Shown piece by piece: positions 1,563 through 3,343 of a stretch of DNA of 64,000 nt. The notes under the pieces are model-generated. The model did no database searches, was not told the origin of the DNA, and was given only the letters and a program-made list of their open reading frames with translations. The DNA is taken from positions 62,001-126,000 of the forward strand of contig JAUSJX010000022.1 in the NCBI GenBank assembly GCA_030647435.1, given 5' to 3'. The position numbers and the translations under genes are program-made. Position 1 is the first letter of the stretch. The number at the start of each line of letters is the position of its first letter. This DNA is from Candidatus Rokuibacteriota bacterium (GTDB taxonomy: Bacteria; Methylomirabilota; Methylomirabilia; Rokubacteriales; CSP1-6).

Positions 1563-2507
<945 letters not shown>

Positions 2508-2526
2508 GAACGCAAGGAGAAGGGCC

Positions 2527-2865
2527 ATGAGCATTGACGTCTATATCCCGACGCCGTTTCGCCGCGCCACGAACAACACGGATCGCGTGTCCGTCGATGC
2601 GCGCGACGTCCGCGGGCTGCTCGACGAGCTCGAGGGGCGCTTCAGCGGCCTGAAGGGTCTCGTCCGCAACGAGGCCGGCGAAGTTCACCACCACGTCAAC
2701 ATCTACGTGAACAATGAGGGCATCGAGTCGCTCCAGGGGCTTCAGACGCCGCTGAAGGATGGCGACGAGGTCTCGATCATTCCAGCCCTTGCCGGGGGCG
2801 GGCCAGCCCTTGCAGGCGGCGGGCCGGCCCTTGCCGGGGGCGGGCCGGCCCTTGCGTGGGGCTGA
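2527..2865 (+). CDS. cysO: ThiS/MoaD-fold sulfur-carrier protein, CysO-like, with repeated C-terminal tail
   Basis: A 112-aa beta-grasp ubiquitin-like protein. Residues 1-91 look like CysO/MoaD and reach the expected C-terminal motif (SIIPALAGG), whose Gly-Gly would carry the thiocarboxylate. The protein does not end there: PALAGGG occurs three times, followed by PALAWG and the stop. The tail comes from four 21-bp units. To act as a sulfur carrier the tail must be trimmed to a Gly-Gly end, and the next gene encodes a JAMM protease able in principle to do this. The ATG is 19 bases after cysM, with an AAGGAGAAG ribosome site. Confidence 0.88.
   Translation: MSIDVYIPTPFRRATNNTDRVSVDARDVRGLLDELEGRFSGLKGLVRNEAGEVHHHVNIYVNNEGIESLQGLQTPLKDGDEVSIIPALAGGGPALAGGGPALAGGGPALAWG
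2782..2865 (+). repeat. Four 21-bp tandem units at the 3' end of cysO
   Basis: Units lie at 2782-2802, 2803-2823, 2824-2844 and 2845-2865. The first three encode PALAGGG and the last PALAWG plus stop. Units differ at a few positions (cca/ccg, gccggg/gcaggc). Because 21 is a multiple of three, changes in unit number keep the frame and change only the number of candidate Gly-Gly ends. Confidence 0.95.
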
Positions 2866-2875
2866 CTCGCGCACG

Positions 2876-3335
2876 ATGATCCTGACGCCAGAGGAATACG
2901 CCCGGATCCAGGCCCAGGCGCTTGCTGAGTACCCGTCCGAGTGCTGCGGGGTCGTGATGGAGCGACCAGGTGCTTCGCCCGAGCGTCTCCTCCTGGCGTG
3001 CCGCAACATTCAGAACGAGCTGCATGCCAAGGACCCCAAGCGTCACCCTCGCGATGCGCGGACGGCCTACTACATCGACCCGCGAGACCTGATCGCCATG
3101 GGCCGCCACGAGGCGCAGGGCTTCCGGGTCCTGACGATCTACCACTCGCACATCGACGCCGGCGCATACTTTTCCCCCACCGACAGGGCCAACGCCTTGA
3201 TCAACGGCGAGCCCGCCTATCCCGACGCGGCCTACGTGGTGCTCTCCGTCGCCGAGCGGCGTGTGGCGGAGGTGGAGGCGTTTCGGTGGGACCTGGCGAT
3301 CCGCGACTTCGGCGCCGTCAACTGGAAGAAGCCGG

Positions 3336-3343
<8 letters not shown>
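2876..3343 (+). CDS. mec: JAMM/MPN+ zinc metalloprotease, Mec-like
   Basis: A 155-aa Mov34/JAB1-type isopeptidase. The full JAMM set is visible: E22 (SECCG) and H90-x-H92-x7-S100-x2-D103 ([15 protein letters not shown]). In mycobacteria the homologous Mec+ releases cysteine from the CysO-cysteine adduct. In quinolobactin synthesis a related protease trims the sulfur carrier to expose Gly-Gly. Here one enzyme may do either or both, since the carrier before it has an extended tail. The frame is open upstream through the cysO repeats, but the ATG at 2876 gives the normal N-terminus. The stop overlaps the hemL start by eight bases. Confidence 0.9.

Follow-up and report, generated by a model that had tools for sequence, protein, structure and literature searches.

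A CysO-like sulfur carrier of Candidatus Rokubacteria encoded with a tail beyond its Gly-Gly end that is made of tandem repeats in one clade

Described systems and the carrier locus

The nearest bacterial cases known to us are QbsE and HcyS, sulfur carriers that are made with residues after Gly-Gly and from which a co-encoded JAMM protease, QbsD or HcyD, removes them. To our knowledge, these tails consist of one or two residues. In Mycobacterium tuberculosis, a cysteine synthase (CysM), a carrier of the ThiS/MoaD fold (CysO), and a JAMM protease (Mec+) are co-encoded, and Mec+ hydrolyses CysO-cysteine (PMC3227635). MoaX of M. tuberculosis, a MoaD-MoaE fusion with its Gly-Gly buried inside a longer chain, needs a cut after Gly82 to work (PMC4326299). 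In the protein-modifier systems of archaea, SAMP precursors are substrates of CsJAMM, and a ubiquitin precursor is cut by CsRpn11 exactly after its Gly-Gly (PMC6043591); we noticed no repeat-made tail in that report. A comparative study of 2006 predicted operons of ThiS/MoaD, E1, JAB, and cysteine synthase genes (rows 4c and 4d) and suggested for JAB the role of releasing ubiquitin-like domains from proteins to which they are fused (PMC1779556). The available part of that study shows gene sets closely similar to the one reported here, and describes neither repeat tails nor carrier-JAMM fusions of the present kind.

The window, a stretch of 64,000 nucleotides, comes from a soil or groundwater bacterium of Candidatus Rokubacteria; organisms of this family are known from metagenomes only. 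Genes for a cysteine synthase, a ThiS/MoaD-fold carrier, and a JAMM protease follow one another on its forward strand. The upstream gene, of the cysK/cysM type (1563..2507), scored 431 bits against NCBIfam TIGR01139 cysK, for which the cut-off is 350.95; the usual substrate of cysK is O-acetylserine, and the synthase that partners CysO in M. tuberculosis takes O-phosphoserine together with the thiocarboxylated carrier. The carrier ORF (2527-2865) encodes 112 amino acids reading ...EVSIIPALAGG and then GPALAGGGPALAGGGPALAWG before the TGA stop codon at 2863..2865. Its body of 91 amino acids (2527..2799), ending in IIPALAGG, has the beta-grasp domain and terminal Gly-Gly that characterize ThiS/MoaD-type sulfur carriers: residues 6-91 matched Pfam ThiS PF02597 (E 2.8e-13, 50.6 bits), and the structures 4n6e, a ThiS/MoaD family protein, and 3dwg, CysO, both matched residues 1-91 and ended there, at the Gly-Gly of their own chains.

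The tail after Gly-Gly (2800..2862) comprises 21 amino acids, so that the C-terminus is laid out as IIPALAGG-GPALAGG-GPALAGG-GPALAWG-stop. An earlier note, made from the sequence alone, had read a PALAGG end followed by repeats as far as PALAWG, and translation and Tandem Repeats Finder confirmed this. The array (2782..2862) contained 3.9 copies of a 21-bp unit, the first of which is the native PALAGG end, with 88% matches and a score of 120. At a lag of 21, the best 60-nt stretch had 53 matching positions, whereas the maximum over all lags from 6 to 60 in 1000 dinucleotide shuffles was 39; the array is therefore far above shuffle expectation. Only the last seven residues of the carrier are repeated, in contrast to polyubiquitin-like precursors, in which the whole ubiquitin-like domain is repeated. 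The AlphaFold2 model of the carrier was of low confidence (mean 61) and was used solely for noting that the tail is unstructured, with pLDDT below 50 at residues 89-112.

The carrier stop codon ends at 2865 and the ATG of the JAMM/Prok-JAB metalloprotease gene (2876..3343, forward strand) lies at 2876, leaving a gap of exactly 10 bases, as the earlier note had stated. The product matched Prok-JAB PF14464 (E 8e-15) with its active-site motif HxH(x7)SxxD intact, and no other protein of the genome matched Prok-JAB above cut-off. A phmmer search of the PDB with this protein at E 0.001 found no relative.

Across 1563-3343, the carrier is thus encoded with a cysteine synthase and a JAMM protease, as is CysO with Mec+. 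CysO of M. tuberculosis (3dwg), however, ends at Gly-Gly, whereas 21 amino acids follow it here and every readable orthologue extends past it; the gene of the E1 enzyme, a predicted selenoprotein, lies at another place in the genome. The residues after Gly-Gly and the co-encoded JAMM with an intact metal site are instead features of the QbsE/HcyS kind of pro-carrier, from which this family differs in tails that reach 29 residues or consist of a whole protease and that, in one clade, are built from repeats of the carrier's own end. The earlier note had contrasted the long tail of this genome with the two-residue extension of QbsE; the contrast is true of this protein and is weaker for the family, because two residues is also the median tail length among its relatives.

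Carrier ends in related genomes

We searched 57 genomes of the same family and 95 of the phylum and could read the orthologue in 54: 53 belong to the family and one to the same order. Outside these, the copy in G042 was frameshifted, and three family genomes had only a second, more distant carrier. The G042 carrier (L060) seems to be frameshifted near its C-terminus, by a sequencing error or in a broken fusion. PALAGG was kept in all readable orthologues, and in none of the 54 was there a stop codon directly after the first Gly-Gly. The earlier note had named such relatives as what would refute it, and the comparison instead supported its expectation that the translated carrier lacks a free Gly-Gly and should need trimming. 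Tails were 1-29 residues long (median 2), and one further tail of 35 residues ran off the contig end; the residue right after Gly-Gly was G, A, or R in 51 of the 54. All readable relatives cover the Gly-Gly, and the cover is therefore a family trait.

In most relatives, the carrier and JAMM genes meet in a 4-nt overlap, ATGA or GTGA. The two genes were adjacent wherever both could be read, and where flanks were available the cysteine synthase gene also lay beside the carrier. The metal-site motif H-S-H-x7-S-x2-D was intact in this genome and in 50/54 orthologous loci; it was not seen in G009, G040, and G047, in which the JAMM was truncated where the contig or stretch ended, or was located elsewhere. 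The three family genomes without the carrier had no Prok-JAB match above cut-off either.

In five genomes (loci L038, L042, L044, L055, and L057), representing three origins on the tree, the carrier and the JAMM formed a single in-frame ORF. The G014 fusion had no ATG, GTG, or TTG within 60 codons past Gly-Gly; the protease would therefore be produced solely as an extension of the carrier. At L044, the JAMM part of the fusion lacks its own start codon. An AlphaFold2 model of a fused carrier-JAMM (mean 86, pTM 0.60) placed a low-confidence hinge at the junction, residues 88-91. MoaX is joined to MoaE, whereas these carriers are fused to the protease itself. In other families of the phylum (Methylomirabilota), the carrier was fused after Gly-Gly to its E1 enzyme, and in the cases examined a JAMM gene lay within the same contig, a few kb away. 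A survey of other phyla found the E1 fusion in several Chloroflexota, and free Gly-Gly was common in Verrucomicrobia and cyanobacteria. Because no orthologue ends at Gly-Gly, and because of the JAMM fusions and the E1 fusions in other families, the comparison supports a requirement for trimming as a trait of the family.

The repeats appear to be a local variation on this family-wide cover. In a tree built from concatenated carrier, JAMM, and cysteine synthase, all repeat-made tails fell within a single nine-genome clade (support 100/99). There were three extra units in this genome, two in each of its two closest relatives, two in G034 (the distal one altered), and one in G053 and G054; G025 had a diverged form of the extra unit, G055 had GPDSVEG in place of GPALAGG, and G022 had no unit. 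The protein of G024 terminates exactly at a later Gly-Gly, ...GPALAGG. Distal units had decayed to PALAWG, PAPAWG, PALAVGRG, and GTPSTRN, and the spacing and frame between carrier and JAMM varied inside the clade. Within a genome, units 0 and 1 differed by a mean of 0.8 nt, compared with 2.4 nt (unit 0) and 2.9 nt (unit 1) between genomes, as if the units had been repeatedly copied or homogenised. The differences between units 0 and 1 were all synonymous, and the proximal GPALAGG was intact in most of the clade. This could reflect selection, but the same is expected if the unit is homogenised with the native end, unit 0, which is constrained; since homogenisation alone suffices, the intact unit is weak evidence of function.

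Proposed maturation and alternative explanations

The most probable reading of these observations is that the carrier is a JAMM-trimmed pro-carrier whose tail is nearly free in sequence and was lengthened in this genome by tandem duplication. The carrier would be translated as a precursor blocked at its C-terminus by the encoded tail, and a protease would expose Gly91, a step suggested by the family's chemistry and by a block that all readable relatives share. The neighbouring JAMM, of the Mec+/QbsD-like kind, would cut after the first PALAGG and free the Gly-Gly. It is the obvious candidate for the trimming enzyme, and its adjacency, its intact metal motif, its standing as the sole Prok-JAB protein above cut-off, and the fusions all point to it. 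JAMM cleavage behind Gly-Gly has firm precedents in CsJAMM and CsRpn11 (PMC6043591) and in Mec+ acting on CysO-cysteine (PMC3227635). The exposed Gly-Gly may then be adenylated and sulfurated by the genome's one ThiF-type E1, and the thiocarboxylate may serve as sulfur donor for the cysteine synthase encoded directly upstream, as suggested by the order of the genes and by the pathway of M. tuberculosis. The JAMM would, in addition, free cysteine from its adduct with the carrier. Because the cut precedes it, the tail would be almost unconstrained in length and sequence. In the repeat clade, the last 21 bp would have been tandemly duplicated, and the array would still be undergoing copying, homogenisation, and erosion.

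We consider repeats without a dosing role the most economical interpretation of the array. The earlier note suggested that the repeat-made tail could make the carrier a zymogen; a special part of the repeats in this is not supported, as most relatives block the end with one or two residues. It also proposed that unit number sets how many cuts or Gly-Gly ends are possible, but the repeat was confined to one clade, varied between sister species, and was decayed or absent in two genomes, and the comparison of unit number across relatives that it called for yielded nothing in favour of a dosing device. The wider claim that the PALAGG units are functional, with the JAMM cutting after each to give a ladder of longer-armed carriers and unit number tuning the speed or yield of maturation, could appeal to the three intact PALAGG sites of this genome, to the proximal extra unit, intact in six clade members and diverged in G025, and to its synonymous differences from unit 0. 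It is nevertheless quite improbable, as 47/54 orthologues have no intact extra unit, the number differs between the closest relatives, the site was lost in G055 and is absent in G022, and distal units decay while homogenisation accounts for the intact proximal one. The chance is remote that the array is a multi-site pro-peptide in which every PALAGG is a JAMM site, sequential cuts delay maturation, and slippage alters the copy number so that populations can adjust the supply of active carrier. That trimming is unneeded, the carrier using the last Gly of its tail or working tail-on as a long flexible arm, would suit G024, whose protein ends in GPALAGG; it is very improbable, since all other tails end differently, five of them are whole proteases, and the work on MoaX showed that a buried Gly-Gly must be freed (PMC4326299). 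Assembly error or a frameshift artefact, the other outcome that the earlier note had named as refuting it, can hardly explain the array. Short tandem repeats are prone to mis-assembly, but the strict two-unit DNA pattern occurred at this locus only, in 6/95 separately assembled genomes of the phylum and with different diverged units, a reversed control in the same 95 genomes gave zero matches, and 81 bp is shorter than ordinary reads.

A role of the tail in translation, by holding the region where JAMM translation starts or an RNA structure through which the two genes are coupled, is unlikely as the reason for the tail, although the 4-nt overlap of most relatives, a CTGA overlap that appears to serve in genus g23, and an array that folds better than shuffles (z = -3.1) are in its favour. 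Overlap forces no tail, for a free-Gly-Gly overlap, GGN-GGA-TGA, can be encoded and is used by 0/54; the second carrier, which has no JAMM after it in this genome, is tailed in 41/51 loci; and JAMM spacing and frame vary within the repeat clade. The better-than-shuffle fold and the CTGA overlap nevertheless make translational coupling of carrier and JAMM plausible as a separate feature. At 2775-2881 of the window, the JAMM start codon can pair with the Ile-Ile codons before PALAGG in a putative coupling hairpin that has the array in its loop. The three genomes of g23 (L012, L013, and L016) have no ATG, GTG, or TTG at the JAMM start, which seems to be the CTG within the CTGA overlap. Two related ideas were rejected: a tail forced by gene overlap, on the grounds of the encodable GGN-GGA-TGA and the tailed second carrier, and ribosomal frameshifting from carrier into JAMM, on the grounds that the frame relation differs in sister genomes (frame 1 in this genome, G000, and frame 2 in G024).

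If the carrier is a JAMM-trimmed precursor, proteolytic maturation seems to be an integral step, much as it is for the ubiquitin precursors of eukaryotes, in a lineage that, across the 54 readable orthologues, never encodes this carrier with a free working end. The natural tails, which range from one residue through repeats to a whole protease and, in related families, a whole E1, would form a panel for the cut-site requirements of the JAMM. The carrier would then resemble the archaeal SAMP and ubiquitin precursors, in which a JAMM cuts a ubiquitin-like precursor after Gly-Gly. A short tandem repeat can apparently grow from a functional C-terminus, because the cut would make the added residues disposable.

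The second carrier and the E1 enzyme

This genome has a second carrier of the same family, encoded beside a threonine-synthase-like gene (L117:6373-6651) and ending in PAIAGG-S; no JAMM follows it. Across the phylum, this carrier had a tail in 41/51 loci, mostly Gly-Gly and one residue, often Arg, and a free Gly-Gly in 10/51; the 51 loci include L096, an E1-fused carrier picked up in place of a second carrier, and most of the free Gly-Gly ends belong to one genus. The difference in free Gly-Gly ends between the CysO-like and second carriers, 0/54 versus 10/51 (Fisher P 0.0004, uncorrected for shared ancestry), indicates that the CysO-like carrier is the stricter of the two. The three Prok-JAB-less family genomes, two of which are incomplete, still encode the second carrier, and in the two that were read it ends in GG-R; other trimming, or tolerance of the tail, is therefore possible there.

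The only ThiF-type E1 of this genome is a rhodanese-E1 protein encoded on the minus strand at G000:C60:103159-103866 (L116), with an in-frame TGA at 4340-4338 in place of the conserved Cys codon and a SECIS-like hairpin after it. Among the 52 genomes of the family in which an E1 was matched, 51 had an E1 gene with one in-frame TGA. Thirty of these copies were read; in them the TGA stands in place of the conserved Cys (GLVPS-U-SEAGVLG), and a SECIS-like hairpin that hardly varies, CCTGGG-CGTGCT-CCCAGG, comes after it; an extra E1 copy in G019 has TGC instead of TGA. A tRNA-Sec was detected in the genome (71 bits). The E1 of this family is therefore predicted to be almost always a selenocysteine enzyme, of a known kind because MoeB-type selenoproteins have already been described (PMC1088965), and the enzyme with this predicted, conserved selenocysteine is the one from which charging of the carrier is expected.
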